A program made the translations under genes and the position numbers. This document shows, piece by piece, positions 5,000 through 63,862 of a DNA stretch of 64,000 nt. Every line of letters starts with the position of its first letter. Position 1 is the stretch's first letter. The stretch is taken from the NCBI RefSeq assembly GCF_013705725.1, contig NZ_CP055481.1, positions 6,262,001 through 6,326,000 of the forward strand. Reading direction: 5' to 3'. The notes under the pieces were generated by a model. The model was not told where the DNA came from, searched no databases, and worked only from the letters and a program-made list of their open reading frames with translations. The stretch comes from Klebsiella sp. RHBSTW-00484 (GTDB lineage: Bacteria; Pseudomonadota; Gammaproteobacteria; Enterobacterales; Enterobacteriaceae).

Positions 5000-5929
5000 T
5001 TACCCCTGTTGACGTAAAAATTCATCTATTTCTTTTCGCCATGGCACGGAGGGCTGAGCACCTTTACGGGTGACGGCGATAGCCGCGGCAGCATGGGCAA
5101 AACGAATCGCCTCAGCCAGTGCGGTACCTTCAAGCAGCGCGGTGACCAGCGCCCCATTAAAGGTGTCTCCGGCGGCAATAGTATCAACGGCCTGCACTTT
5201 AAAACCGGGAACACGATGACCGTTGCCTTTGAGACTAGCCCATACACCACGGCTGCCGAGGGTAATAATCACCGCACCAATACCTTTATCATGGAGCACG
5301 TTAGCTGCTTTTGCCGCATCATCGTCATTTTCCACTCGAACGCCGGTCAGTTTTTCCGCTTCGGTTTCGTTCGGGGTAATGATATCCACCAGCGCTAACA
5401 GTTCATCCGGCAACTCTCGTGCTGGAGCAGGATTGAGTATCACTGCAGTTTGACTCTGGTGAGCAATTTTCGCCGCCGCCAGTACGCTTTCTAACGGCGA
5501 TTCCAGCTGCATTAGTAGCGCCTGCGCGCTGGCGATACGATCTTTTTCAGCTTCAACCTGCGTAACGGAAAGGGCGGCGTTAGCTCCAGCATGAATACCA
5601 ATAGTATTCTCACCTTCAGCGTTCACAAAAATCAGCGCCACGCCGGTTGATTCCCCGGCAACAGCCCTTACCGGCGCAACGTCGATATTATCGCTTTCCA
5701 GCTGGCGACGAACGCGTTCACCAATATCGTCATCACCGGTACAGGCGATAAAAGAGATATTTGCCCCGCTGCGCCCGGCAGCAACGGCCTGATTTGCGCC
5801 CTTACCGCCGAAAGCGACCTGATAGTGATGACCGGTGACGGTTTCACCAGGCGTAGGGAAGGAGTCGAGGTTAAGGATGTGATCGGCATTGATACTACCA
5901 AGGACGACAAGTTTGCCTGCGGTTTTCAT
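5000..5929 (-). CDS. rbsK: ribokinase
   Basis: A 309-residue PfkB-family sugar kinase that phosphorylates cytoplasmic ribose to ribose 5-phosphate with ATP, feeding the pentose phosphate pathway. Visible signatures are the N-terminal GSINADHIL segment with GGKGANQAVAAGR at about 40-52, and the C-terminal PfkB motif DTIAAGDTFNGAL with the catalytic Asp in AAGDTF. The open frame extends 15 codons further upstream, but ATG 5929 matches E. coli length and has GGGAAT before it. About 100 bp with a strong hairpin separate it from rbsB, whereas it nearly abuts rbsR. Confidence 0.97.
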   Translation of the reverse strand: MKTAGKLVVLGSINADHILNLDSFPTPGETVTGHHYQVAFGGKGANQAVAAGRSGANISFIACTGDDDIGERVRRQLESDNIDVAPVRAVAGESTGVALIFVNAEGENTIGIHAGANAALSVTQVEAEKDRIASAQALLMQLESPLESVLAAAKIAHQSQTAVILNPAPARELPDELLALVDIITPNETEAEKLTGVRVENDDDAAKAANVLHDKGIGAVIITLGSRGVWASLKGNGHRVPGFKVQAVDTIAAGDTFNGALVTALLEGTALAEAIRFAHAAAAIAVTRKGAQPSVPWRKEIDEFLRQQG

Positions 5930-5947
5930 AATCAATATTCCCGGAAA

Positions 5948-5973
5948 GCGCGCCACCGGAACCCGGTGGCGCA
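5948..5973 (-). other. strong hairpin between rbsB and rbsK
   Basis: A perfect 10-bp stem (GCGCCACCGG at 5950-5959 with CCGGTGGCGC at 5963-5972) and a 3-base loop, without a U-tract. It probably stabilises the upstream rbsDACB transcript end and lowers expression of rbsK and rbsR relative to rbsB, as intercistronic hairpins commonly do. The rest of the 100-bp gap shows no gene. Confidence 0.6.
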
Positions 5974-6030
5974 TGCCCTGCTTTTCTTTATTATGTTGAC
6001 CCTCGGACCGTTGCCAGTCCGAATCACATA

Positions 6031-6921
6031 TTATTGCTTAATGACCAGTTTCAACTCAACCGGATAGCTGGTATCCACTTTTTCGCCCTTCAGCACTTTA
6101 TCAGCGGTCTCAACGCCTTTCACGCCAATCTGCTCCGGAAGCTGGGCGACGGTCGCAGCCAGTTTGCCACTGTTTACTGCTTTTTCGCCATCCGGAGTGC
6201 CGTCAAATCCAACCACCATCACATCAGATTTACCTGCGGTTTGCAGAGCGCGCAGCGCACCCAGCGCCATTTCATCGTTCTGGGCAAATACGGCCTGTAC
6301 ATCAGGATGCGCCGTCAGCAGGTTCTGCATGACGTTCAAGCCCTTAGTGCGGTCGAAATCTGCCGGCTGGCTAGCCAGTACGTTAAATTTATGCGCCGCA
6401 ACGGCTTGTTGAAAACCTTCGCCACGCTCACGCGCCGCAGAAGTCCCTGCAATTCCCTGTAGTTCAATGATCTTCGCACTTTCGCCGACTTTCTTGGCAA
6501 TATAGTCACCGGCCATCTTGCCGCCCAGAACGTTATCAGAAGCAATATGGCTTACCACTTCGCCTTTTGAGGCCTGGCGGTCAAGGGTAATAACCGGAAT
6601 TTTTGCCTGATTCGCCAGCTTCACAGCATTACCTACTGCGTCAGAGTCGGTTGGGTTGATCAGCAGCAGTTTGGCTCCGCGAACGGTTAAGTCCTGAACG
6701 TTAGCCAGTTCTTTCGCAGGGTTGTTCTGTGAATCCAGCACCACCAGGTTATAGCCGAGTTTATCTGCTTCTTTTTGCGCACCATCCTTCAGAGAGACAA
6801 AGAACGGATTGTTAAGCGTAGAGATAACCAGAGCGATAGTGTCTTTTGCCATCGCGTTTGCGCTTACGGTTGCGCTTAAAGCTACAGCAGAGATCAGGGT
6901 CGCCAGTTTTTTCATATTCAT
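6031..6921 (-). CDS. rbsB: ribose ABC transporter, periplasmic binding protein RbsB
   Basis: A 296-residue secreted protein with a Sec signal peptide ([20 protein letters not shown], cleavage after ANAMA). The mature part starts [16 protein letters not shown], as in E. coli RbsB. It captures D-ribose in the periplasm and delivers it to the RbsC permease; in enterics it is also the ligand presenter for the Trg chemoreceptor. Ligand-contact segments such as [14 protein letters not shown] and [13 protein letters not shown] are conserved. It follows rbsC by 27 bp. Confidence 0.98.
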
Positions 6922-6948
6922 AGTTAAGATGTCCTGTAGAGTTCTCAG

Positions 6949-7914
6949 TTACTGCTTCTTGTTATCTACCAGTACCGCCAGCAAAATAACCACCGCTTTC
7001 ACGATCATCTGGTAATAGGATGAAACGCCTAATAAATTCAAACCGTTGTTCAGGAAGCCAAGGATCAAAGCACCAATCAACGTACCGACAATACGACCTT
7101 TACCACCCGCCAGGCTGGTGCCACCAAGCACAACCGCAGCAATAGCATCCAGTTCATAACCGGTGCCTGCCGTTGGCTGTGCGGAAGAGAGACGCGCGAC
7201 CTCAATAATCCCGGCCAGCGAAGCCAGCATGCCGCACAAAGAATAGACAATGATTTTAACTTTATTGACGCTGATGCCAGAAAGACGGGTTGCCGCTTCG
7301 TTACCACCCAGCGCATAGATATAACGACCCAAACGGGTATGGTGCAGCATGTACCACGCGGCCAGGAAGACAATCGCCATAATCCACACCGGGGTTGGGA
7401 TCCCCAGCGGGCGACCAATCCCGAACCAGCCAAACAGATCGGCATTGTCGGTAAAGCCAGTATTTACCGGGCTACCGTTGGTATAAACCATGGTCACACC
7501 GCGTAGCAGCAGCATCATTACCAGGGTAGCGATAAATGCCTGCACGCGCCCTTTTGCCACAATTACGCCTGTAACCGCGCCGATTGCCGCACCTAATGCC
7601 AGCGCAGCGGCAACGGCCACCAGCGCGTTAACCTCAATTCCGACAATTGAAGCGGCGACCGCGCCAGTCAGCGCCAGAAGGGAACCTACGGACAGGTCGA
7701 TACCCGACGTCAGGATAACCAGCGTCATCCCTACCGCCATGATGGCGTTAACTGAAGTCTGTTGCAGAATATTGAACAGGTTATTCACGGTAAAAAAGTT
7801 GGGGCTCATGGTAGAGACAACCGCAATCAGCACCAGTAGGGCAATCAGCGATTTTTGCTCCATCAACCACGCTTTGGTGAAGTAGCGGCGACCAGAAACA
7901 GTCGGGTTATTCAT
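6949..7914 (-). CDS. rbsC: ribose ABC transporter, permease RbsC
   Basis: A 321-residue integral membrane protein with about ten hydrophobic segments, forming the homodimeric channel of the ribose importer in the inner membrane. It carries the BPD_transp_2-type signature of this subfamily in the segment GYELDAIAAVVLGGTSLAGGKG, the loop that contacts the ATPase (interrupted here only by my memory of the family, not by the sequence). Its start is 5 bp after the rbsA stop, indicating coupled translation. Length and sequence agree with E. coli RbsC. Confidence 0.97.
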   Translation of the reverse strand: MNNPTVSGRRYFTKAWLMEQKSLIALLVLIAVVSTMSPNFFTVNNLFNILQQTSVNAIMAVGMTLVILTSGIDLSVGSLLALTGAVAASIVGIEVNALVAVAAALALGAAIGAVTGVIVAKGRVQAFIATLVMMLLLRGVTMVYTNGSPVNTGFTDNADLFGWFGIGRPLGIPTPVWIMAIVFLAAWYMLHHTRLGRYIYALGGNEAATRLSGISVNKVKIIVYSLCGMLASLAGIIEVARLSSAQPTAGTGYELDAIAAVVLGGTSLAGGKGRIVGTLIGALILGFLNNGLNLLGVSSYYQMIVKAVVILLAVLVDNKKQ

Positions 7915-7919
7915 CTTTT

Positions 7920-9425
7920 TTACTCCTGATTCACGCGGTTAAGCTTGCCCACAGCGGCAGCCATCAATACTTCCTGGGTGGCCTGCTCGCGTGTGAATTC
8001 ACCGCCGAGATGCCCTTCATGCATCACCATGATGCGATCGCTCATGCCCAACACTTCTGGCATCTCAGAAGAGACCAGAATGATGCTCAGACCATCGGCT
8101 TTAAATTGGTTGATCAGTTGGTAGATCTCTTTCTTCGCCCCAACGTCCACGCCGCGGGTTGGTTCATCAAGGATCAGCACTTTTGGCCGAGTCATCAGCC
8201 CGCGGGCAATCGCCACCTTCTGTTGGTTACCGCCGGAAAGTAGCCCAATGGCCTGCTCCATAGACGGCGTCTTCACATTAAACAGGCGGATAAAATCGCT
8301 GACCGCCTGCTGTTCATCTTTATGCTTGAGGCTGCCGCCGCTGCGGCTGAAATAACGCAGTGCAGTCAGCGACATATTTTCTTTGACCGACATACCGAGC
8401 ACTAAACCATCGCGTTTACGGTCTTCAGAGATATAAACGATGCCGTTTGCCAGGCCATCCTGCGGAGAACGCGTCACCACTTCATGACCATCAAGGGTGA
8501 CGTAGCCACTGGTGCGCGGCAGCGCACCGTATAGCACTTTCATCAGTTCCGTACGCCCTGCGCCCATCAGCCCAGCGACGCCAAGAATTTCGCCTTTACG
8601 CAGGGTAAAAGAGACGTTCTCCACGCCCGGCCCACACAGCGCATCCACCTTCAGACGGATATCGCCCGGCGCTTTATCAATGCGCGGGTACTGATCTTCG
8701 AGCTTACGTCCCACCATCATTTCAATCAGCAGATCTTCATCAAGGCTGGCGACTTCACGCTCGGCAATGAACTGGCCGTCACGGAAGACCGTCACGTCAT
8801 CGCAAATTTCGAAGATCTCTTTCATACGGTGGGAGATATAAACAATGCCGCGCCCTTGCGATTTCAGCTCGCGGATGACGCGAAACAGGGATTCGGTTTC
8901 GGTATCGGTCAGTGCATCGGTCGGTTCATCCATAATGATGACTTTCGACTCGAAGCTCAGCACTTTAGCGATTTCGACCATCTGCTGATCGCCGATCGAC
9001 AGATCGCCCACCAGCTTTTGGCTATTGAAGCGTAAATTCAGCTTCAATAGCAGGACATCGGCTTCGGCATACATCTTCTTCCAGTCGATTTTGCCAAAGC
9101 GATTCACAAACTCACGGCCGAGAAAGATGTTCTCTGCAATCGTCAGCTGCGGGATCAGGTTCAGCTCCTGGTGGATGATGCCGATACCGGCTTCCTGGGA
9201 GGATTTCGGGCCGGTGAAGGTGGTTTCTTTACCCAGCCATAATAATGAACCGGCGTCACGGGCATAAATCCCGGTCAGCACCTTCATCATGGTGGATTTG
9301 CCTGCGCCGTTTTCGCCCACCAGCGCCATGACGCGCCCAGAGTAGACATTTAACGCAGCACCGGAGAGCGCCTTCACGCCCGGGAACGATTTATCGATCC
9401 CTTTGAGTTGTAAGAGTGCGTCCAT
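7920..9425 (-). CDS. rbsA: ribose ABC transporter, ATPase RbsA
   Basis: A 501-residue cytoplasmic ATPase made of two fused ABC domains, as is usual for sugar importers of this class. The first domain has Walker [10 protein letters not shown] (about residues 37-45), signature [13 protein letters not shown] and Walker [12 protein letters not shown]. The second has a degenerate Walker A ([10 protein letters not shown]), signature [13 protein letters not shown] and Walker [14 protein letters not shown] 9425 gives [16 protein letters not shown], matching E. coli; the frame extends 15 codons upstream into the rbsD end but that start is unsupported. The rbsD stop is 7 bp upstream. Confidence 0.97.
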
Positions 9426-9432
9426 GACGGCC

Positions 9433-9852
9433 TCAGAACGTGACGCCAGCACAGAGAATAATGTTCGCAAACGGGGAACACTCCCCGCTGCGAATCACCG
9501 CCTGACTATCTGCAGTTTCTTTTTTGAACTGCTCATGATTGGTATAACGAATTTCAATGGTGTTTCCCTGGTGTTGCTGCAGCAGCTCAAGATGTCTGAG
9601 CAACGTCGTGTGGAGCTGCGGGTTAAGGGTTTTAATCTCTTGCGCGAGGATAGCCGCTTCAACCTGCATTTCGCTCGTCACCACCTCCAGAACCTGCATA
9701 AAGGAGGGAACTCCGTGGGTTAACGCCATGTCGATACGCGTGCTGCTACGAGGTACTGGTAATCCAGCATCGCAAACTACCAGCGTATCGGTATGACCCA
9801 GACGGGAGATGACCGACGAAATATCAGCGTTAAGTACGGTACCTTTTTTCAT
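9433..9852 (-). CDS. rbsD: D-ribose pyranase RbsD
   Basis: A 139-residue cytoplasmic mutarotase that interconverts the pyranose and furanose forms of ribose so ribokinase can use the sugar. It has the family start [22 protein letters not shown], with the conserved histidine at position 20, and the C-terminal [20 protein letters not shown] 9852 gives the E. coli length; an upstream in-frame ATG lies within the operator region and is rejected. It is the first gene of the rbs operon, just downstream of two RbsR-type palindromes. Confidence 0.97.
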
Positions 9853-9870
9853 TTTCTCTTTTGCTCCACT

Positions 9871-9962
9871 AGCGAAACGTTTCGCTGACATAAGTATTAT
9901 CAATACTCGAGCAAAAAACCATCATCAGAATTGAGAATTGTGATCGCTATCGAAACGTTTCG
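9871..9962 (-). promoter_or_regulatory. rbs operon control region with two RbsR-type operators and a partial CRP site
   Basis: A perfect 16-bp palindrome, AGCGAAACGTTTCGCT at 9871-9886, matches the known E. coli RbsR operator core. A second copy of the core, CGAAACGTTTCG, lies at 9951-9962, about 78 bp away centre to centre. Two sites of a LacI-family tetramer at this spacing suggest repression by looping. Next to the distal site, TGTGATCGCTATCG is half of a CRP consensus; the rbs operon is CRP-activated in E. coli. The palindromes are seen directly; the looping is inferred. Confidence 0.8.
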
Positions 9963-10002
9963 CAAAACTGAGGTAAAGGAAGGAAGTCAGAATAACAAAC
10001 AG

Positions 10003-10030
10003 CAAAAAGCCCTTCGCAAGGAAGGGCTTT
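10003..10030 (-). terminator. kup transcription terminator
   Basis: Minus-strand hairpin with 10-bp arms (AAAGCCCTTC and GAAGGGCTTT) and a 5-base loop, ending in TTTTTGCTG just downstream of the kup stop. It lies between kup and the rbs control region, so it would also shield rbs from kup read-through. Confidence 0.85.
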
Positions 10031-10036
10031 AGAGAA

Positions 10037-11905
10037 TCAAATTTCGACTTGGGTACCGAGTTCAATAACCCGGTTTGGCGGGATTTCGAACTGATCCGGC
10101 GCTCGCAGGGCGTTACGCTGCAGCAGAAGATACAGCTTGCCGCGCAGGCGCAGATACCACGGCCGCTTGCCGATGATTAACGACTCATGCGACATAAAGA
10201 AGGAGGTCTCCATCATCCGGCAGCTCAGGCCTTCCAGCCCGCAGCGGTGGAAGACTTCTTCAACATTCGGCGTTTCACGCCAGCCGTAGCTGGCAACCAC
10301 GCGCCAGAACGACGGTGAAATCTGCTCAATCTGCACGCGACGAACGTTATGCACGTATGGCGCATCTTCGGTACGCAGCGTTAGCAAGATTACCCGCTCA
10401 TGCAGCACCTTGTTGTGCTTCAGGTTATGTAACAGAGCGAAAGGAATCACATTTAGCGCTCGGGACATATATACGGCGGTCCCAGGAACGCGAACCGGCG
10501 GCGATTTTTCAAGGGAAGAGATCATCGCTTCCAAAGAATTACCATGTTCATGCATCCGACGTAGCAAGCGGAAACGCTCGCTTTTCCAGGTGGTCATGAT
10601 GGTAAACATCACCAGACCCAGCGTCAGCGGCAGCCAGCCACCGGAGACGATTTTGTCGAGGTTAGCTGAGAACAGCGGGATGTCGATGCACATAAAGGCC
10701 ACCAGCAGCAGTGCCACAACAAACTTATTCCAGTGCCAGTTTTTACGCGCTACCGTCGAGAACAAAATGGTGGTCAGCACCATGGTTCCCGTCACCGCAA
10801 TCCCATATGCCGCCGCCAGGTTCGAGGAGTGCTCAAAGCTGACAATCACAATGACCACCGAGATATAGAGCAGCCAGTTAATGAACGGGATATAAATCTG
10901 GCCGGACTCCATTTCCGAGGTATGGATAATGCGCATCGGCGAAAGATATCCCAGACGCACCGCCTGGCGGGTCAACGAGAAGACACCGGAAATCACCGCC
11001 TGAGAGGCGATAACCGTCGCCAGGGCGGCGATAATCAGCATCGGAATCAATGCCCACTCGGGCGCCAGCAGGAAGAACGGGTTCTTAATCGCTTCTGGAT
11101 GTTTTAGCAGTAGCGCTCCCTGACCAAAGTAGTTCAGCACCAGAGAAGGCAGAACTACCGAGAACCAGGCCAGACGAATAGGCAATTTACCGAAGTGCCC
11201 CATGTCGGCATACAGCGCTTCCACGCCGGTAATCGACAGTACCACCGCGCCCAGTGCGACAAAAGAAACGGTTTTATATTCGAGGAAAAAGTGAACCGCC
11301 CAGTATGGGTTCAACGCCTGCAACACTTCCGGGTTAGCAAAAATGCTACGCGCCCCTAGCACTGCCAACAGCAGGAACCAGATCAGCATAATTGGCGCGA
11401 ACAGCTTGCCCACCATACTGGTGCCGTGCTTTTGGATAGCAAACAGCAGCGTCAGAACAATAATTGATATGGGGACAACCCAGGTATCCAGGTCAGGAGC
11501 GATAATTTCCAGACCCTCGATTGCTGACATGACCGAGATTGCCGGCGTAATGACCACCTCTCCGTAGAAGAAGCTACCGCCGATAAGACCAAGGATCACC
11601 AGTACGGACGTTGCTCGCGCGGACGTGTTACGTCCTGCCAGCGACATCAGCGTCAGGATCCCACCTTCACCGGCGTTATCCGCCCGCATAACGAAGGTAA
11701 TATATTTGAGTGATACGGTAAAAATCAGCAGCCAAAAAATGAGCGACAGGAAGCCAAAAACAGCATCACGCTCAACGCCAAAGCCAAACTGGCCAGACAG
11801 ACATTCACGAAGTGTATATAGCGGGCTGGTGCCGATATCGCCGTATACCACACCGATTGCCGCCAGCGTTATTGCTGGCAACGATTGCTTATTATCAGAG
11901 CTCAT
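10037..11905 (-). CDS. kup: low-affinity potassium uptake protein Kup
   Basis: A 622-residue inner-membrane K+/H+ symporter of the KUP/HAK/KT family, the same length as E. coli Kup. It opens with [43 protein letters not shown] is the family hallmark of TM1. Twelve membrane segments fill residues about 12-430, followed by a soluble C-terminal domain of roughly 180 residues. It is the constitutive potassium transporter important at low pH and at low turgor. It is divergent from ravA, with 217 bp between the starts holding both promoters. Confidence 0.98.
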
Positions 11906-12122
11906 AGACTAGTCTTTTCGTTTATAAAACAAATGTGTGCCTAGTCCCTTGGCCCACAAAAAGCGCACAGTATGCACGATTATTTGCTAAATCGTACCCC
12001 TAACTGACATCATCTTAACCTGACTCAAAGAAAATAAATCGATTCTTCAGGCTATTACCACCCCTAATCAAACATCTATACTCGACTTAACAACGACATC
12101 CTAAAAAGCACGCAACTCAATT

Positions 12123-13622
12123 ATGGCTCAATCACATTTACTGGCAGAAAGAATTTCCCGGCTCAGCGCAGCTCTGGAAAAAGGGCTCTTTGAACGCAGC
12201 CACGCAATACGCCTTTGTCTACTTGCGGCACTCAGCGGCGAGAGCGTTTTTTTGCTGGGTCCACCGGGTATCGCCAAAAGCTTAATTGCCCGCCGTCTTA
12301 AGTTCGCCTTCCTGCGAGCCCGCGCATTTGAATATCTGATGACCCGCTTTTCAACGCCGGAAGAAGTCTTTGGCCCACTTTCCATCCAGGCGCTGAAAGA
12401 CGAAGGTCGTTACGAACGCCTGACCGCCGGCTACCTTCCGGAAGCCGAAATTGTTTTTCTCGATGAGATCTGGAAAGCAGGTCCGGCGATCCTCAATACG
12501 CTGCTGACGGCGATAAACGAGCGCCATTTTCGCAACGGGGCAACCGAAGAGAAAATCCCTATGCGCCTGCTGGTGGCAGCATCGAACGAATTGCCTGAAG
12601 CGGATAACAGCCTGGAAGCCTTATACGATCGCATGCTCATCCGTTTATGGCTGGATAAGGTACAAGATAAAACCAACTTCCGCTCAATGTTGATAAGCCA
12701 GCAGGATGAGAACAGCAACCCAGTTCCAACTAATTTGCAGGTCAGCGACGAGGAATTCATACAGTGGCAGCAAGATATCGGTGCCGTTAAGCTGCCGGAC
12801 AGCGTGTTTGAGCTGATTTTCCAGTTGCGCCAGCAACTGGATGCACTACCCAACGCGCCCTACGTTTCAGATCGTCGCTGGAAAAAAGCCATCCGTCTGT
12901 TGCAAGCCAGCGCCTTCTTCAGCGGTCGAGATACCATTGCCCCTATCGACCTGATCCTGCTGAAAGATTGCCTGTGGCACAACATTGAGACCATGAACCT
13001 GATGTCCGTGCAGTTGGAAACCTTAATGACCAGCCACGCCTGGCAGCAACAGGCAATGCTCACCCGCCTGGGGACGATTATCCAGAGGCGCATTCAGCTT
13101 CAGCAACAGCAAAGCGATAAGACCGCGCTAAAAGTGACGCGCCTGGGCGGTATGTTTAGCCGGAAACCTCATTATGAATTACCTGCTGAAGTGCAGGCCC
13201 CCACGTTGACTCTGCTACTCCAGCAGCCGCTCAAACTGCACGATCTGGAAGTCATTCATATTACGTTTGTCCGTGAAGAGCTAGCGCATTGGCTGGAAAA
13301 AGGCGGTGAGATCCGCGGTAAACTCAACGGTATAGGCTTTGCCCAGCAGCTGAATATGGATGTCGATACCAGCCAGCACCTGGTTGTGCGCGATGTCAGT
13401 CTGCAGGGGTCGCGTCTCTCCTTACCCGGCAGTGAATCGCAGGAAAATATGCCGGCCGAAATCAGGCAACAGCTGGAAGCGCTGGACGACGAGTGGCATC
13501 AACAACACAACCGCTTCAGCGAACAGCAAAAATGCCTGTTTATTCCCGGTGAGTGGCTGGGACGCATCGAAGCCAGCCTGCAGGACGTTGGGACGCAGAT
13601 TAAACAGGCCCGACAGTCATGA
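12123..13622 (+). CDS. ravA: regulatory ATPase RavA (MoxR AAA+ family)
   Basis: A 499-residue MoxR-type AAA+ ATPase that forms hexamers and, in E. coli, binds the inducible lysine decarboxylase LdcI and works with ViaA on respiratory complexes. Walker A is GPPGIAKS (46-53) and Walker B VFLDE (111-115); sensor I lies in [19 protein letters not shown]. The C-terminal LARA domain region (about 330-440) is present. The stop overlaps the viaA start by 4 bp (ATGA type), so the two are translationally coupled. It is divergent from kup. Confidence 0.97.
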
Positions 13623-56560: not shown

Positions 56561-56929
56561 TGTCGTATCCGGTAAGTGATGGTACCAATAAAGGTAATTG
56601 AGAAAGCGGTACGCGTGAAGACGTAAAGGAAGAATAAAAAACCCGCTTTAACAGAAAGTTAATGCGGGTTAGTCAATGCAATACAGAAGCTGGAAAATCG
56701 AGCTAACTCGTTAATCTATCAGCGATACGTTGCCTTGAAAACATGGCTATGGGCACATTCAAGGACACAAAAGTATACAATGAATAACCAGTACCTCTGC
56801 TCTGCTAGGTGTTACTGCTGAAAGTTCGCTTGTTACACAACGTAATACTCTTTTTTAACCCCATTCTGATGTTCTACTGATAGACAGTGTTTTTTCAGTA
56901 ATCATTTGTTTAGTTTGGATTTTCATGAT
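56561..56929. other. intergenic stretch with minus-strand terminator and likely island edge
   Basis: No gene is supported in these 369 bp. They contain a terminator for minus-strand transcription (56635-56670) and, just beyond it, CAATACAGAA (56679-56688; minus strand TTCTGTATTG). From there to 56929 the DNA is AT-rich and featureless to me. The terminator belongs to a gene that once lay to its right on the minus strand and is now replaced by other DNA, so the edge of the inserted segment is probably here. Confidence 0.5.
56635..56670 (-). terminator. intrinsic terminator on the minus strand, now without its gene
   Basis: Minus strand AACCCGC and GCGGGTT arms (56640-56646 with 56664-56670), extended by GTTAA/TTAAC inner pairs, followed by TTTTTATTC. 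The only minus-strand gene to its right is the 1253-residue ORF, whose stop is 260 bp away. It fits better as the terminator of a core gene displaced by the island. Confidence 0.7.
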
Positions 56930-59900
56930 TCATGATTCCTGATTCCATAAACCATCTTCGTCATGCATCTGCGCTTCATATTCGTAAGATTTTGCAAGAG
57001 CTTCGATCATGATGGCAACGTTAGGTTTAGTATCCTTCCAATGGTTCGCTAAGTATCTGAATTTTTCCGAAACTTGTCGCTCTTGCGTTCCACCGTCATA
57101 TGGCATACGGGTAGTGACACCACGAGTGTTACGAACTCCGGTTTTGAAACCTCGCCTAATGTCTTTGCAGTCATCCTGATCCAATAGATCGGCAATGATT
57201 GGGTGTGGCCAACATTCCACATTTTTATTTAAAGGCCAATCAGAAAGCCAGGCTCCTATAGTCAGGTCCGTGATAGCCTCTCGATCATTATCTTTTGCCA
57301 ACTCTCGAACTCTGTTGATCCACGAGAAAAACAACTCGCTATTTATTTCTCCAGCGTGGTTCATACCAGGAACGCCGTGTTCTTCGTGGAGTAAACTACT
57401 GGCTGTCCGAGCAGCTGTTTGTAGATGCTCAGGTAGAGGTTCACGTGCTGTATTATGAGGTTTGTAGGCGAGACAGATGAGCTCCATAAAAGAATCTGGT
57501 TCACCTAATATTTCTGCCATCAAATGTGGTGCACCGTATTTGTCTCTTTTAAGTAGTGGATAGTAAATGAACTCCAGACTTACCATTTCTGCAGGATTGT
57601 TTCCTGCGTCAGTAAGCGCCTTGAATATACGAGAAATGTGCCATGAACGAGGGAATTCGGCATTTTCTTCTTGGCCAGCAGCGATGCCTTTTAGAATCAG
57701 GATTAGCGACTCCCTTGGTAAGTCACTAGAACGATCTCCCATAGCATTTATAGCTGTTCGCGGCCTTCCTGCGGCAAGTAGTTTTTCGATGCAAAAGAGC
57801 AATTGCTCCTTATTCGACTGGAAATAAGACGGTCGAACATTCAACCAGAAATGATCGAGAAGCATTTGATATTGATTTTCAATAAGTTGCCACAAGTTCA
57901 TTCCTTGCGGAGCATTTACCATGAAACCAGCCATCTTTTCGGAAGAGGCGGATTTTTGCTCGAGTTGAGATAAGCATGTATCGAGGAAATCAAGGAGTTC
58001 TGCTTGAGGTAGCGCATGAAGTACACCGCTGGTCAGTGAATCATATAACGACGAACCCTGTGATGCCTCCAGATACCATTGACACAGCCATTCCGCCATC
58101 TCTTCACGTTCGAATGGTTCTTTAATAAGCTCCCAGCCAACAAGTCGCGGATCTCCACAACGTTTGGCTAGTCTATGAATACCAGACCAACCCAGTGCTT
58201 GGAAGATTTCTCGAAGGGCGAGGGTGCGCAATGCATTTCTTGTCTTGTTCGCTTTTTCATGATCTTCTTCATACCCGTCTGGGAGTTCAACCCATCCATT
58301 GGAGAAAATCCATGAATGCCTGACGACCAGATCATCCGCAGCTAGTCTGTCAAAAAATGGTCTCAACGCATCAGCTGAATATCGATCGCGTTTATCACCA
58401 TCTTGGTTAAAAGAGTTTTCCCAGTTCAGAAATTGTCTGACGGCAGTGCGAACTGTTTCTCGCTGCTCATCGGGTAAAGTTGTAGCTTTACCTACCAGTT
58501 CGATTACCTTTTCTCTGAAAGTGGTGTCCATATCATTTATTTTCGGGACAAGATCAGAGATATAATGGGCATTGTCCTGAGCTTTCTCTAACAATAAATC
58601 TGCAACAGGTAGTATGAATCGTTGAATCTCACTATAGGTGATGCCCTCGTTAGTACCCGCATCATCGTCACGCCAGCGAGGTTTTGCATTGGGTGAAACC
58701 ATATCAAGTTGGTTGGGTAGTAGGGCCATCAAAAGTTTCCAGGCTACTTCGGGATATTTATCGACGACATTCCTGAGTGCTCGGAGTCTTATATCGACGG
58801 ACGCGGCTGTTTGTGGATACCAAGAGCGAAAAAAGGAAACCAGAGTATTAAATGGCGTATTACCCCAATTCCCCTTTATTTCTATATTTGATAGTTCTGC
58901 AAGGATATTCGCAACTCGTACGAGTCGGGCGGGATACCATGCCAGCAATTCCAAAGCCCAAAGTAGGTTGGCATGCCAGCAGCGGCCCGATATCTCTGAT
59001 GATGTTGTTTCCGTAATCAGGCGAGTGACTGGTTTATCAGGGCTATGCAAACTGTTTTGAACGGCGTTCAGAAACTCATCAGGAGCCGCTTCTGCTAGAG
59101 CTCGAAGAAAGGATGAAACGGAGAGCCAACGTTCTTCATTGGCATCTTCCAGGAGTTGAGTAATAAAGCCTCGTACAGAATTGCCAATAACAACATGCTG
59201 AAAATTGTCTGAAAAATAGCCGAGTTTGGCAATTGATTCCGCCATAGCCTCCAAAACAACACCGGATTGTTCGCGAACTTTGCCATAGATTGAGGCCATC
59301 CATCGTTTGTCCTCTTCCAGTTCCAGCACAGGATCCGGTTGTTCAAATACAGCTCGAGCTACCTGAAAGAATCTTGCCAGAATGGTGTTCGTTAGTTTGG
59401 GGGCCATTAGATGTAATAGCTCCATTGGCGCTTTCGCTTTCCAGAGAGAACCTATTTTTACGACTGGTGCATCATCAAGCGCAGCTAAACTTAATAGCTC
59501 ATTTTCAATGTCTTCGTAGGTGCGGTTGGCAATCTGCTCAACACAAGCCCTGTCCCCTTCGGAGTCGCTATTCCAGGCACCCACGAGGGTAAGTAGCAAC
59601 AAATTTTTGGCGTTGGCACCTTCAATCCAATCTGGTTTTTTGAACACCGGATTTTGCGCATGCCATCGACGAAAAACCGTCCATGACCTTCCCAGTGAGT
59701 GGGTATACCGTGCGGCATCAGAGGATGCGATCCCAAGCTCGCAAAGGGATTTTTCAAACTCTTCAGGTTGCGGACGTCTAAGTTCCACTATTTTCTGATC
59801 TATTGCTTGGCACCCAATTCCCATGAGATTGAAGGCCTGGTCTCCAAATGCCATCGGTACTATTAAGCTCATACCTTCGCGTGGGGCTCGTCGCTTGCTC

Positions 59901-60691
59901 AACTGGTTATTGGTAATGACCACCAATTCAATGCCGGGATTAGCATCAATGAACTGCCATCCTTGTTCTGAAGTTATACAGGCAGCACGTAAGAAATGGC
60001 CTTCTTCAATCAACAATGCGCAAACGAAAGCAACTGCTTCGGACTGACTGTCAGCCATTACAGTTATCAGCGGGTCATGCTGATTAATATTGTTTTGTAG
60101 CGTAAGCTTTGACTGCTCTCTACCATGAAATAGCGCAGGTGCAGTAATTGCGGGGCAGGATTGATTTTTCCAGTGCTCCCAGTAGTTTTCTACTGCTTCA
60201 ATGCCATGACCAGCAATATCAAGCTGCATGCCTAGCCATAAACTGGTCGCTGGAGAGGTTTCCAGCCATGCTTCCAGATCGTCAGCATCCCAAACTAGTA
60301 CATCCGCCCAGGCATTTTTTTTCCTTGCCTGTTCTTGCCAAGTACTTTTGCCTGGCCAGCGACGAGGAGTTACAAAAACAAAGGTTGCTTGTGCTTTTTG
60401 AGCAGCTGAAATCTGTTCCAGACGTTTCTCAAAATCGCTGTTGGCTTTGGATGCCGGATCTTTTGAGGTGCCTAGCTCCCAGTAGCTGAGCCCATCTGGA
60501 ACCCAGGGATTTCCTTGCGCAACATCGACAACACCATCCCAGCCAGGAACATTCACCGAATCACCACCTGGCATGGTAATTGCTGTAATACGTGATGTAA
60601 CTGATATAAGCCGCCTTACCAGGATTGGAAGCATTCCTTGTGCTTCACGCTTGTCTGACCATTGGACTAGATGAGTTGCGGTGACGCGCAT
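56930..60691 (-). CDS. large nuclease-like/NTPase-like helical protein, candidate phage defence
   Basis: A 1253-residue cytoplasmic protein without signal peptide. Residues 1-160 resemble a PD-(D/E)xK restriction-type domain: GWDGVVDV (Asp52, Asp56), WELGTSKD (Glu72, Lys77), FVFVTPRRW (104-112) and DVLVWDADDLEAWLE (130-144). Residues about 188-300 look like a nucleotide-binding fold that has lost its P-loop: FHGREQ, then ITVMADSQSEAV where GxGKS is expected, and IELVVITNN at the Walker B place. From about 340 to the end the protein is almost wholly helical, like HEAT or TPR repeats. AAAGGAG lies 9 bases before the ATG. I recall this architecture as a widespread unnamed family. Its defence role is inferred from architecture and island setting. 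Confidence 0.75.
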   Translation of the reverse strand: MRVTATHLVQWSDKREAQGMLPILVRRLISVTSRITAITMPGGDSVNVPGWDGVVDVAQGNPWVPDGLSYWELGTSKDPASKANSDFEKRLEQISAAQKAQATFVFVTPRRWPGKSTWQEQARKKNAWADVLVWDADDLEAWLETSPATSLWLGMQLDIAGHGIEAVENYWEHWKNQSCPAITAPALFHGREQSKLTLQNNINQHDPLITVMADSQSEAVAFVCALLIEEGHFLRAACITSEQGWQFIDANPGIELVVITNNQLSKRRAPREGMSLIVPMAFGDQAFNLMGIGCQAIDQKIVELRRPQPEEFEKSLCELGIASSDAARYTHSLGRSWTVFRRWHAQNPVFKKPDWIEGANAKNLLLLTLVGAWNSDSEGDRACVEQIANRTYEDIENELLSLAALDDAPVVKIGSLWKAKAPMELLHLMAPKLTNTILARFFQVARAVFEQPDPVLELEEDKRWMASIYGKVREQSGVVLEAMAESIAKLGYFSDNFQHVVIGNSVRGFITQLLEDANEERWLSVSSFLRALAEAAPDEFLNAVQNSLHSPDKPVTRLITETTSSEISGRCWHANLLWALELLAWYPARLVRVANILAELSNIEIKGNWGNTPFNTLVSFFRSWYPQTAASVDIRLRALRNVVDKYPEVAWKLLMALLPNQLDMVSPNAKPRWRDDDAGTNEGITYSEIQRFILPVADLLLEKAQDNAHYISDLVPKINDMDTTFREKVIELVGKATTLPDEQRETVRTAVRQFLNWENSFNQDGDKRDRYSADALRPFFDRLAADDLVVRHSWIFSNGWVELPDGYEEDHEKANKTRNALRTLALREIFQALGWSGIHRLAKRCGDPRLVGWELIKEPFEREEMAEWLCQWYLEASQGSSLYDSLTSGVLHALPQAELLDFLDTCLSQLEQKSASSEKMAGFMVNAPQGMNLWQLIENQYQMLLDHFWLNVRPSYFQSNKEQLLFCIEKLLAAGRPRTAINAMGDRSSDLPRESLILILKGIAAGQEENAEFPRSWHISRIFKALTDAGNNPAEMVSLEFIYYPLLKRDKYGAPHLMAEILGEPDSFMELICLAYKPHNTAREPLPEHLQTAARTASSLLHEEHGVPGMNHAGEINSELFFSWINRVRELAKDNDREAITDLTIGAWLSDWPLNKNVECWPHPIIADLLDQDDCKDIRRGFKTGVRNTRGVTTRMPYDGGTQERQVSEKFRYLANHWKDTKPNVAIMIEALAKSYEYEAQMHDEDGLWNQES

Positions 60692-60929
60692 AATGGAAGG
60701 CTCCTTTGGAATGTGCCTACTGACTGGTTCTTCGTTTTAATCAGAGTGGTCTCAGAAGTTATCAACTTGACCTAACTGGTTAATTATACAGCATATCAAT
60801 TTCAAATTAGCATCTGTTCGTACCTCTAAAGATGTAAAAAAGTTATGTCGCATTGTTTATGCGGCGCGCATAAAATCGCCCTTAATATGAGGTGATAAGC
60901 ATAGTTTTTGCGTGCTGACTTGCGCTATA
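60692..60929. promoter_or_regulatory. upstream region of the 1253-residue gene with a perfect dyad
   Basis: AT-rich DNA without a gene. TTTATGCG (60856-60863) and CGCATAAA (60867-60874) form a perfect 8-bp inverted repeat around GCG, about 165 bp upstream of the start. It could be an operator or a terminator-like end for DNA to the right. No clear promoter boxes could be fixed. Confidence 0.4.
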
Positions 60930-61098
60930 GTCCCCACGTTGCGGTAAAACCGCAGCCGGAATTGGCGTTCCGAATTATCACGAGTGTCGGTAGCGATGTT
61001 TGTAGTGCTACTGGCGCGGCCTGCGCTCGCCCCTTCAATGGTGGCTCAGGCAGGGGCTTCGAAAGAAGCGCCGGGTCGTGATAACCGGTACGCCAACC
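60930..61098 (+). pseudogene. remnant resembling the ash gene region of P4-like satellite phages
   Basis: On the plus strand one frame reads CGKTAAGIGVPNYHECR then stop, and a second frame reads MVAQAGASKEAPGRDNRYAN up to the IS edge. GIGVPN and MVAQAG...YAN are pieces I associate with Ash-family proteins of P4-like elements, here broken by stops and a frame change. The IS3 element begins directly after YAN. Agreement with a nearby P4-type integrase supports a satellite-phage origin. The recognition rests on memory of short motifs, hence low confidence. Confidence 0.4.
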
Positions 61099-61177
61099 TG
61101 TAAGTATCCCTGAAAAACGAACCATTCACTTTTAGAGATCTTCCGACATACTGATTATGTCCCCTGAGGAGATCGCT

Positions 61178-61444
61178 ATGCGTAAGATCCGATTCACCGA
61201 GCACCAGATCATCGCCGTCCTGAAATCCGTCGAAGCTGGCAGGACCGTCAAAGATGTGTGTCGCGAGGCTGCTATTTCCGAAGCCAGTTACTACAACTGG
61301 AAGGCGAAATATGGTGGGATGGAAGCCGCTGATATCAAAAAAATCAAAGATCTTGAGGACGAGAACCGCCGGCTTAAACAGATGTTTGCGGACCTGAGTC
61401 TCGAGTGCCGTGCACTGAAAGACGTTATCGAAAAAAAGCTTTAA
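61178..61444 (+). CDS. IS3-family OrfA (helix-turn-helix protein)
   Basis: An 88-residue protein starting MRKIRFTEHQIIAVLKSVEA with a helix-turn-helix (about 5-45, EASYYNWKAKYGG) that binds the IS ends and a C-terminal leucine zipper (LEDENRRLKQMFADLSLECRA). ATG 61178 has GAGGA 7 bases upstream; a frame extension of 7 codons is not conserved. Alone it is usually an inhibitor. Near its end the slippery heptamer A AAA AAG (61432-61438) in the zero frame allows a shift into orfB. Confidence 0.9.
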   Translation: MRKIRFTEHQIIAVLKSVEAGRTVKDVCREAAISEASYYNWKAKYGGMEAADIKKIKDLEDENRRLKQMFADLSLECRALKDVIEKKL

Positions 61445-62289
61445 AACCAGCGATAAAGCGGGAGCTCGTCAGCTATCTGACGGCACAATTTGCCATGAGC
61501 ATTCGCCAGGCGTGCAGGACATTATCGCTGAGCAGGACGGTATATTTTTATCAGCCCGATACCCGGCGCGATGAACCGGTGATCCAGAAGCTGACAGAGG
61601 CGGCTGAACGCTATCCCCGCTACGGATTTAAGAAGCTTTTTCAGGTGCTGCGCAGGCAGGGTAACACCTGGAACCATAAACGCGTTCACCGGATTTACTG
61701 CCTGCTGAAACTGAATTTTCGCCGTAAGGGAAAACAGCGTCTGCCGGTGCACAATCCTGCTCCGCTGGCGACGCCAGAGGCGATGAACCAGAGCTGGTCC
61801 ATCGATTTTATGCACGATGCGCTGGTGTGCGGCAGACGCTTCCGGACTTTTAACGTGGTGGATGATTTTAACCGCGAAGCACTGGCGATCGAAATTGACC
61901 TGAATATCCCGGCGCAGCGGGTCGTGAGAGTGCTGGACAGGATCGTGGCAAACCGCGGATATCCGCTGAAGATGCGGATGGATAACGGCCCGGAGCTGGT
62001 CTCGCTGACACTGGCACAATGGGCAGAAGAACATGGTGTAATGCTGGAATTTATCAGGCCCGGCAAGCCAACGCAGAATGCCTTTATCGAACGGTTCAAC
62101 CGGACATACCGGACAGAAATACTGGATTTTTATCTGTTCAGAACACTGAATGAAGCACGGGAAATTACAGAGCGCTGGCTGGCTGAATATAACGGCGAGC
62201 GCCCCCACGAATCCCTGAATAACCTGACACCGGAAGAGTACCGGCTGATGGCTGAAACCCCGGAAATCTCAAAAAGTGCGTGGAACTAA
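61405..62289 (+). CDS. IS3-family OrfB (DDE transposase part), expressed by -1 frameshift
   Basis: The frame is open from 61405 and is entered from orfA at 61432-61438, so translation effectively begins ...KALKPAIKREL. It contains an rve integrase core with D in SIDFMHDAL, D in RMDNGPELV and E in NAFIERFNRTYR, followed by the R-rich end GERPHESLNNLTPEEY typical of the family. The OrfAB fusion is the active transposase. No stops interrupt it. Confidence 0.9.
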   Translation: MPCTERRYRKKALKPAIKRELVSYLTAQFAMSIRQACRTLSLSRTVYFYQPDTRRDEPVIQKLTEAAERYPRYGFKKLFQVLRRQGNTWNHKRVHRIYCLLKLNFRRKGKQRLPVHNPAPLATPEAMNQSWSIDFMHDALVCGRRFRTFNVVDDFNREALAIEIDLNIPAQRVVRVLDRIVANRGYPLKMRMDNGPELVSLTLAQWAEEHGVMLEFIRPGKPTQNAFIERFNRTYRTEILDFYLFRTLNEAREITERWLAEYNGERPHESLNNLTPEEYRLMAETPEISKSAWN

Positions 62290-62305
62290 AACGGGTGTGC
62301 TTACA

Positions 62306-62641: not shown

Positions 62642-63862
62642 TTAACGATTTATCTCATAAGCCTTCCCAAACTTCCCGATAACCACCTTCCGCCCCTCCT
62701 CAATCTGCGCATCAACAAAGTCCGCCCAGGACTGAAGCATCTCCCGGCGTTGATGCAGGTACTGCGCGCGGTTGTAAACACCGCGAACGCCGCCGATCTT
62801 ATGCGCCAGGCATTTCTCTACCCAGTCGGAGTTGTAGCCTTGCTCATGTAGCAATGTGCTGGCAGTACGCCGGAAGTCATGAATAACAAAATCCCTGACG
62901 TTCAGATCCAGCGTACGCACTGCGCAGTTAAGCGTTGTTTTAGAGATCGGGCGTCGGTGGTCGTTTCGGCTGGGGAAGACGTATGGAGAATCTCCGGCCA
63001 GAAATTTTAGCTCTTCGAACATCGCCAGCGCCTGCTTTGACAATGGGACGATATGCGGGTTATCCATCTTCATTCTTTCGCCGGGTATACGCCATTCCAG
63101 CGAATTGAAGTTAACTTCACTCCATGTCGCTTCAATCAGTTCTGATTTACGCACCATGCAGATGATCAGCAGGTGCAGAGCCAGTTTGTGGCGTCGGTTC
63201 ATATTAGAGGTGTAGATCCCCCGTAACAGGATGCCGATCTCTTCTGCTGTTAGCGCCACGTCGCGGCTTGTTGCTTGTGCGATATAACGGGCCTCGATAG
63301 CGGCTGCCGGGTTGTTGAATATGATTCCCCTGGAAATCGCATAGGCCAGCATGCGTTTAAGAACGTTTCGCGTCAGTAGCGCGACGTGATCCGAACCTCG
63401 TTGCTTGATACGGTCGAGCACGACCTGAATATGGGCTGTTGTGAGTTCTTCCAGTTCCAGTTTTCCGATGATGGGAATGATGTCCTTCTCGATAACGCGA
63501 GTGACGTTGCGCGGATTGCGGTTACTTTTTTCAACGATATCGGTCAGCCATCGTTTGGCGAATGTTTTGACTGTCGTTGGGTCTTTCTGTTTAAGCTTTT
63601 CTTCCTGCTTTTTCTGCGCCGGATTGATGCCATGAGCAACCATCGAGCGACACTTTTCACGCCAAAGCCGCGCTTCTGCAAGTGAGAAAGCTGGGTATTC
63701 GCCCAGCGTGATCTTTTGCGATTTGTTGTCAAAGCGGTAGCGGAAACGCCAGATTTTTCGTCCGGTGGGAAGAACTTCAATCACCAACCCGTCATGATCG
63801 GCAAGTTGCCAGGGGCGGTTTCTGGGAGTAAGCGTGCGTAGTTTGGTATCTGAAAGTGCCAT
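62642..63862 (-). CDS. int: P4-type tyrosine integrase
   Basis: A 406-residue site-specific recombinase of the P4/CP4 family. The N-terminal arm-binding DUF4102-like domain (about 1-90) begins MALSDTKLRTLTPRNRPWQL with GLVIEVLPTGRKIWRFRYRF. The core-binding domain is at about 100-180, and the catalytic domain carries R238, H328-x-x-R331, H354 and Tyr363 (GVYNRAQY). All catalytic residues are present, so it may be active. AGAGGTGAG lies before the ATG. P4-type integrases normally sit next to their att site, which here should be to the right of 63862, beyond the window. No excisionase gene is seen nearby. Confidence 0.93.
   Translation of the reverse strand: MALSDTKLRTLTPRNRPWQLADHDGLVIEVLPTGRKIWRFRYRFDNKSQKITLGEYPAFSLAEARLWREKCRSMVAHGINPAQKKQEEKLKQKDPTTVKTFAKRWLTDIVEKSNRNPRNVTRVIEKDIIPIIGKLELEELTTAHIQVVLDRIKQRGSDHVALLTRNVLKRMLAYAISRGIIFNNPAAAIEARYIAQATSRDVALTAEEIGILLRGIYTSNMNRRHKLALHLLIICMVRKSELIEATWSEVNFNSLEWRIPGERMKMDNPHIVPLSKQALAMFEELKFLAGDSPYVFPSRNDHRRPISKTTLNCAVRTLDLNVRDFVIHDFRRTASTLLHEQGYNSDWVEKCLAHKIGGVRGVYNRAQYLHQRREMLQSWADFVDAQIEEGRKVVIGKFGKAYEINR

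Follow-up and report, generated by a model that had tools for sequence, protein, structure and literature searches.

Results

The locus and the gene

The subject of this report is a single large gene in a stretch of 64,000 nucleotides of Klebsiella sp. RHBSTW-00484 (contig NZ_CP055481.1), which is referred to below as the window and whose numbering is used throughout. The gene occupies positions 56930..60691 on the minus strand, starts with ATG and encodes 1253 residues, which can be divided into a nuclease-like N-terminus, a STAND-like middle region without a P-loop and a helical C-terminal part of about two thirds of the length. A mobile element of about 7.4 kilobases (kb) in the mnmE terminator carries it as sole recognisable cargo and contains, in addition, a tyrosine integrase adjoining mnmE (62642..63862, minus strand) and an IS3-family insertion sequence (61099..62305, plus strand); there is no further recognisable gene among the open reading frames (ORFs) of the element. 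The initial description of the gene as alone in an island with an integrase thus holds, with the insertion sequence added to it. We find by profile comparison that the protein is a distant, collinear homologue of PD-Lambda-4_A, and consider that it is most likely an anti-phage sensor-nuclease.

A ribosome-binding site, AAAGGAG, can be read nine bases 5' of the ATG (60701..60707, minus strand). The G+C content of the gene is 46.1%, compared with 51.3% in the first 53.8 kb of the window. Against the 82%-identical gene of Pectobacterium the ratio of nonsynonymous to synonymous substitution rates (dN/dS) is 0.11 for the whole gene, 0.049 for residues 1-180 and 0.064 for residues 181-345; the last two regions remain at 0.05-0.08 across three pairs of genes. 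Purifying selection is strongest in the nuclease-like and NTPase-like parts. Because these values are low, the gene is maintained and is neither a chance ORF nor a relic, but a genuine and complete gene on which purifying selection is strong.

Kinship with PD-Lambda-4_A and the place of the Walker A motif

The alignment of the family profile with that of PD-Lambda-4_A (PADLOC PDLC03991) is collinear over 722 columns and covers residues 95-898 (hhalign 99.4%, E 6e-22; the reversed-sequence control for the same comparison gave 0.53). The two proteins are of similar length (1253 and 1283 residues), have their parts in the same order (in PD-Lambda-4_A a nuclease-like N-terminus, a P-loop NTPase and a helical region) and are both found in islands. 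The sequence-only reading could attach no named system to the gene; PD-lambda-4, identified by profile comparison, is such a named relative.

Residues 181-345 (59657..60151, minus strand) form the STAND-like region, which is collinear with the NTPase of PD-Lambda-4_A in the full-length profile alignment. The Walker A motif of the latter, GLSGVGKTR (residues 241-249), is aligned on ADSQSEAVA (residues 213-221), with a gap of one residue just after it; the decapeptide ADSQSEAVAF (residues 213-222) at this place is encoded by 60026..60055 on the minus strand. All 117 of the 117 long PD-lambda-4-type proteins carry the GK[ST] signature, its glycine included, at this place, whereas none of the 117 long homologues of our family (out of 120 listed) has it when GK[S/T] is sought at residues 186-265. 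In 12 of these 117 it occurs elsewhere in the protein, and one family row of the tree described below, L038, carries a motif of this type by chance at residue 289. An ADSxxEA-like pattern stands at the site in 102 of the 117 family proteins, and in an alignment of 61 sequences 57 retain D214, 58 retain S215 and 60 retain E218. At the Walker B position one reads, by eye, VVITNN here and MILDN in PD-Lambda-4_A. The absence of GK[S/T] from the middle region is therefore confirmed, and the loss of the nucleotide switch, which had been proposed from the sequence without any relative at hand, is supported.

A tree built from 53 rows of the central region has one branch, with 100/100 support, that parts all eight PD-lambda-4-type rows from the 45 others. 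The Walker A motif is seen in seven of the eight; the ORF of the eighth, L143, which is grouped with the GKT proteins, starts downstream of the site. The sequence L013 was left out of this tree, and several of its rows are long or odd in composition. Since one branch separates the two sides, the loss of the Walker A motif looks old and single; with a midpoint root only, a gain on the PD-lambda-4 side is formally possible. Judged by these alignments, the 1253-residue family is a sister branch of PD-Lambda-4_A that descends from a common ancestor and is devoid of the P-loop. Two proteins, L145 (1474-5250) and L143 (1006-3735), bridge the two groups; L145 keeps the P-loop GEAGLGKT and has, by eye, a D..QIK N-terminus.

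The N-terminal region

Residues 1-180 (60152..60691, minus strand) contain the conserved motifs GWDG, WExG, KA, TPRRW and DADDLExWLE and are a candidate nuclease domain of the PD-(D/E)xK type. Of the acidic and lysine pattern proposed initially, Asp52 (codon 60536..60538, minus strand) and Glu72 (60476..60478, minus strand) are invariant in 61 of 61 aligned sequences and are candidate metal ligands, while Asp56 is kept in 6 and Lys77 in 19 only. The conserved lysine is Lys82 (60446..60448, minus strand; 60 of 61), which we regard as a candidate displaced catalytic lysine. R110 and W112 are also invariant (61/61). Displacement of the catalytic lysine occurs in some PD-(D/E)xK enzymes. The motif here can be written D..ExG..K, compared with D..QxK in PD-Lambda-4_A; in profile comparison residues 129-166 match the N-terminal region of that protein (E 4e-6, 87%).

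The helical region

Residues 346-860 (58112..59656, minus strand) are helical and homologous to PD-Lambda-4_A: residues 340-860 align with its residues 400-870 (hhalign E 9e-18, 99.0%). Residues 861-1253 (56933..58111, minus strand) form a faster-evolving helical C-terminus and are a candidate sensing part. Alignment entropy is highest at residues 851-1000, and the dN/dS of residues 861-1253 is the highest of the four regions in two of three pairs, namely the two in which all regions could be computed. Helical hydrophobic periodicity prevails over strand-like periodicity in 74% of the 18-column windows of residues 346-860 and in 85% of those of residues 861-1253, compared with 50% (plus or minus 7-8) in shuffled sequence. 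This supports a helical nature of residues 346-1253 and implies no particular repeat fold; of the earlier "about 900 residues of helical repeats" it is the helices that find support, the repeats being putative.

Family size, variants and distribution

Among 7997 candidates scored in a search of 5.8 billion proteins, 912 are homologues at E<=1e-3. The 120 listed contain no Pfam domain, and such names as they have are "hypothetical" or "uncharacterised"; for the 1253-residue protein itself no useful match was found in Pfam, NCBIfam or the PDB sequences. The protein has matches in 6 of 99 relatives, one being a relic, and in 13 of 398 genomes from the phylum, where some are partial and one is the bridging L143; both counts include the genome of the window. 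Among 72,556 plasmid records 23 have matches, 18 of which cover at least 80% of the protein. No near DNA match was found in E. coli.

In three loci (L005, L081 and L080) other N-termini are joined to the same C-terminal region, and the three form one clade (100/99 support) inside the family. L005 and L081 have in common a different N-terminus, which contains a QVK motif, and that of L080 is of neither type. A front end exchanged on a conserved back end fits what is expected of a sensor-effector protein. A stand-alone ORF in L086 (10913-11716) resembles, by eye, the N-terminal module of L005 and L081; it is followed by an IS3-type pair, with the helix-turn-helix (HTH) fusion L004 adjoining. An XRE-type HTH domain is fused to several divergent members of the family, as it is in the PD-lambda-4-type protein L141.

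An enterobacterial branch of about 39% identity has a partner protein of about 1249 residues, beginning MGKNSKAKRDLKKKK, 3' of the gene. It is encoded at L030 4352-8101, L031 13788-17534, L032 13790-17539, from 13734 in L034 and L059 and from 4019 in L041, being shorter or cut in L034 and L041. The one copy scanned gave a weak, near-collinear PADLOC match to Upx (E 7e-4).

The element at mnmE

The element is bounded by a direct repeat of 17 base pairs (bp), AGTTAATGCGGGTTAGT. Its distal copy, at 56657..56673 (plus strand), is taken as the attachment site; the second copy is found outside the window, where continued numbering gives it positions 64070-64086, and begins some 30 bp after the stop codon of mnmE. 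Among the ORFs beyond the window mnmE, yidC and rnpA were identified by sequence. A site of the SGI1 type was considered and rejected: SGI1 is described at the 3' end of trmE (PMC8409611), and the repeat found here starts about 30 bp past the stop codon.

Of eight mnmE regions fetched from congeners, seven are empty with the flanks abutting. Six of these (L127, L130, L131, L132, L133 and L134) have a single near copy of the 17-bp core with 1-3 mismatches, and in L128 no core is found within 1-3 mismatches. The eighth, L129 (genome G011; 5519-12136), contains a different insertion and retains a relic of the 3' end of our gene, with the same GNAT gene next to it. In Pectobacterium (L020) our gene likewise occupies this mnmE site, as does a deleted copy of it in Halomonas (L069). 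Between this genome and Pectobacterium the DNA identity is 81.6% for the gene and only 76.9% for mnmE; the gene is thus more alike than mnmE, which points to its acquisition by horizontal transfer.

Relatives of the integrase, 90-95% identical, were found in a near-mode search in 4 of 5426 E. coli genomes. All four (L135-L138) lie after mnmE with an identical 17-bp core in the mnmE terminator, and all carry, between the integrase and the tna genes, a cargo which is defence-like by product names. There are three distinct sets: the reverse transcriptase of retron St85 with its effector in one genome; a reverse transcriptase with phosphoribosyltransferase-like and HTH genes in two; and, in the fourth, two ATPase-type genes and an HNH endonuclease, accompanied by replication genes and others. 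A distal copy of the core was not found in any of the four loci, which does not agree with a simple picture, and L135 and L136 have 14 bp of the 3' end of mnmE repeated on the distal side. For these two reasons the outer ends of the E. coli elements are left unsettled, and their type may differ from that of the window element.

Genomic neighbours of the homologues

A survey of the neighbours of homologues, suggested in the sequence-only reading, was made with the two nearest ORFs of at least 200 residues on each side; this gave 202 ORFs, or 198 after the removal of near-duplicates, called mechanically and in some cases spurious. A first set of 102 ORFs (L020-L050) gave matches to 197 PADLOC models at E<=1e-10; AbiEii, restriction enzymes of types I, IIG and IV, and JetC and JetD of Wadjet (two proteins each) are among the 25 commonest models listed. 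For the remaining 96 (L050-L079) the number of models is 70, and the 25 commonest listed include Hma, DUF1156, RmrA, BovA and GajB. Control ORFs from arbitrary places in related genomes (102 of 114 listed, from 17 of 19 fetched regions, all Enterobacterales and thus not matched by phylum) match 25 models, mostly read as look-alikes of the helicase, IscS and SspA types. The census counts models rather than proteins, Wadjet alone accounting for many of the 197, and PbeA and mad2 also match in the control. In Pfam the same 102 neighbours include many housekeeping genes, together with 6 integrases and 4 ResIII proteins. The survey thus indicates contexts of the defence type, which are not uniform.

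In genome G099 an island at ssrA (L084) contains an integrase-like ORF, PD-Lambda-4_A and a divergent homologue (6175-9920); the homologue is spread over two overlapping frames and is placed head to head with PD-Lambda-4_A.

Discussion

Proposed mode of action

We think it reasonably probable that the protein is a self-sufficient anti-phage sensor-effector, in which the helical region would gate the nuclease without a P-loop NTP switch. According to this proposal, the helical array (residues ~346-1253) would recognise a component made by the phage; the resulting change of shape would be relayed through the STAND-derived connector (residues 181-345), devoid of its P-loop, to the N-terminus; and the nuclease of the predicted PD-(D/E)xK type (D52, E72, K82) would cut DNA and stop the infection, probably at the expense of the cell. 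The Walker A motif is absent from every family member examined, and activation must therefore proceed without it, so that the array may gate the nuclease either directly or through a ligand other than a P-loop-bound NTP.

A broader generalisation can be put forward more tentatively, namely, that the family represents a widespread lineage of NLR-like prokaryotic immune receptors which has dispensed with the nucleotide switch, whose P-loop has turned into the conserved ADSxxEA pseudo-site and whose exchangeable N-terminal effectors are activated by the target-bound helical array in the absence of NTP, through allostery or a new ligand. STAND receptors are thought to need NTP binding for switching. 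The present family shares ancestry with such a protein, keeps parts that resemble an effector and a sensor, and has another conserved motif at the place of the P-loop; it thus offers a direct way to learn if the nucleotide step can be done without and what replaces it. The family is large (the 912 homologues among the candidates scored), and in the window it is a matter of one gene, which makes it easy to test.

Several observations weigh against this proposal. A lysine of the classical E-x-K motif is absent from the N-terminal region, the position two after E72 being Gly or Ser in 60 of 61 sequences, and a displaced lysine must therefore be assumed. Neither protein nor profile searches of PDB, Pfam and NCBIfam returned a match to a nuclease. 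Residues 181-345 cut out alone have no profile match; the PADLOC model of PD-lambda-4 covers only residues 528-645 of the window protein (E 0.0071, 12 bits), and in G000 it has no match at E<=0.001. The housekeeping genes among the neighbours and the control unmatched by phylum belong to the same account.

Other explanations

It is conceivable, if rather unlikely, that the ADSxxEA site is rewired and not dead, binding another nucleotide, a metal, a signal molecule or a partner protein, and is still a switch. The conservation of D214, S215 and E218 given above, with a dN/dS of 0.064 for the region, indicates a site that is selected and not drifting, and the conserved partner of about 1249 residues in the enterobacterial branch agrees with this. 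A Pfam scan of N-terminal halves produced a SLOG match in 1 of 36 (E 0.0055, its place within the protein not given); this is the best of the matches, all of which are weak and come from single members, and the window gene has no such partner in its element.

A direct DNA-targeting enzyme, acting like a restriction enzyme on phage or plasmid DNA with the helical array as a grip, seems to us a shade less probable again. A single gene with nuclease-like residues would suit it, as would the type I, IIG and IV restriction genes and Hma among the neighbours and the HTH domains fused to some members; against these, the element contains no methyltransferase or other mark of self and non-self, and the C-terminal region is kept in members with another N-terminus, as would be expected of a sensor.

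We give still less credence to a role outside defence, for example in addiction or regulation, by which the element would be maintained, or to an unrelated one. The HTH fusions, one of which is annotated as a HigA-family antitoxin, and the housekeeping neighbours speak for it, while it is opposed by the kinship with a component of a defence system that was discovered by experiment, by the defence-type genes next to the related integrase in all four E. coli genomes and by the excess of PADLOC models among the neighbours.

Decay to an inactive member of a once ATP-dependent family is very improbable: 18 of 60 loci are broken or partial, some merely through contig ends, but 42 are near full length in one ORF (L071 counted by hand), the gene in the window is unbroken, three pairs of genes give dN/dS values of 0.05-0.08 for both key regions, and the motif that stands in for Walker A is retained across phyla.

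Comparison with known systems

An anti-phage sensor-nuclease, as preferred here, can be set beside several systems described earlier. PD-lambda-4 is placed under P-loop NTPases in a review that gives Vassallo et al. 2022 as the source (PMC10952713); the work behind the PD systems was a selection for phage resistance in E. coli (PMC9519451). Membership in PD-lambda-4 proper was rejected, as the protein falls below the model threshold and lacks the P-loop. We took as PD-Lambda-4 gene B the ORF downstream of gene A in L008, which is not identified by a model. By tblastn this assumed gene B is present only in L008, L009, L012 and L013/L084, with a fragment in L016; it is found in no family locus save one that also holds PD-Lambda-4_A, and is likewise not found in the PD-Lambda-4_A loci L010, L011, L014 and L015 as fetched.

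The Avs STAND proteins (e.g., Avs5) have a layout of effector, NTPase and repeats like that predicted for the window protein. The Walker A motif is required for Avs5 immunity (PMC12931631), whereas it is absent from the 1253-residue family. The profile search against defence-system models produced no match to Avs or Cap4, the types initially named for comparison, and membership in either was rejected on this ground. As for CBASS, neither the Cap4 nuclease nor SAVED is among the matches listed for the protein at E up to 10, and no cyclase neighbour is recognisable in the element. In HerA-DUF4297, a two-protein ATPase-nuclease complex, the nuclease is activated by remodelling and dimerisation (PMC12198126); the likeness to it and to the Cap4-type nucleases would consist in a nuclease effector that a changed assembly sets to work, and the difference consists in the absence of a DUF4297 or Cap4 match from the window protein. 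DSR2, like the receptor proposed here, combines an effector with a long helical sensing region, and binding of a phage tail tube protein in its C-terminal cavities switches on the N-terminal enzyme (PMC11263360). That enzyme is a Sir2 NADase, and the window protein has no Sir2 match; we draw an analogy here and claim no homology.

In the openly licensed literature, considered by titles and abstract openings, no description of the P-loop-less branch was recognised, which is weak evidence of absence; within the same scope, papers on degenerate-switch defence proteins or on the mnmE site held nothing on the 1253-residue family. PMC10121019 makes no mention of mnmE, trmE, tnaA, yidC or mdtL.

Minor features of the element

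Terminal repeats of the IS3-family insertion sequence were not found in a script search. A promoter scan gave fewer promoter-like sites than in shuffled sequence. Between the insertion sequence and the gene start lies a stretch without a recognisable gene (60900-61098), which appears by eye to be richer in G+C.

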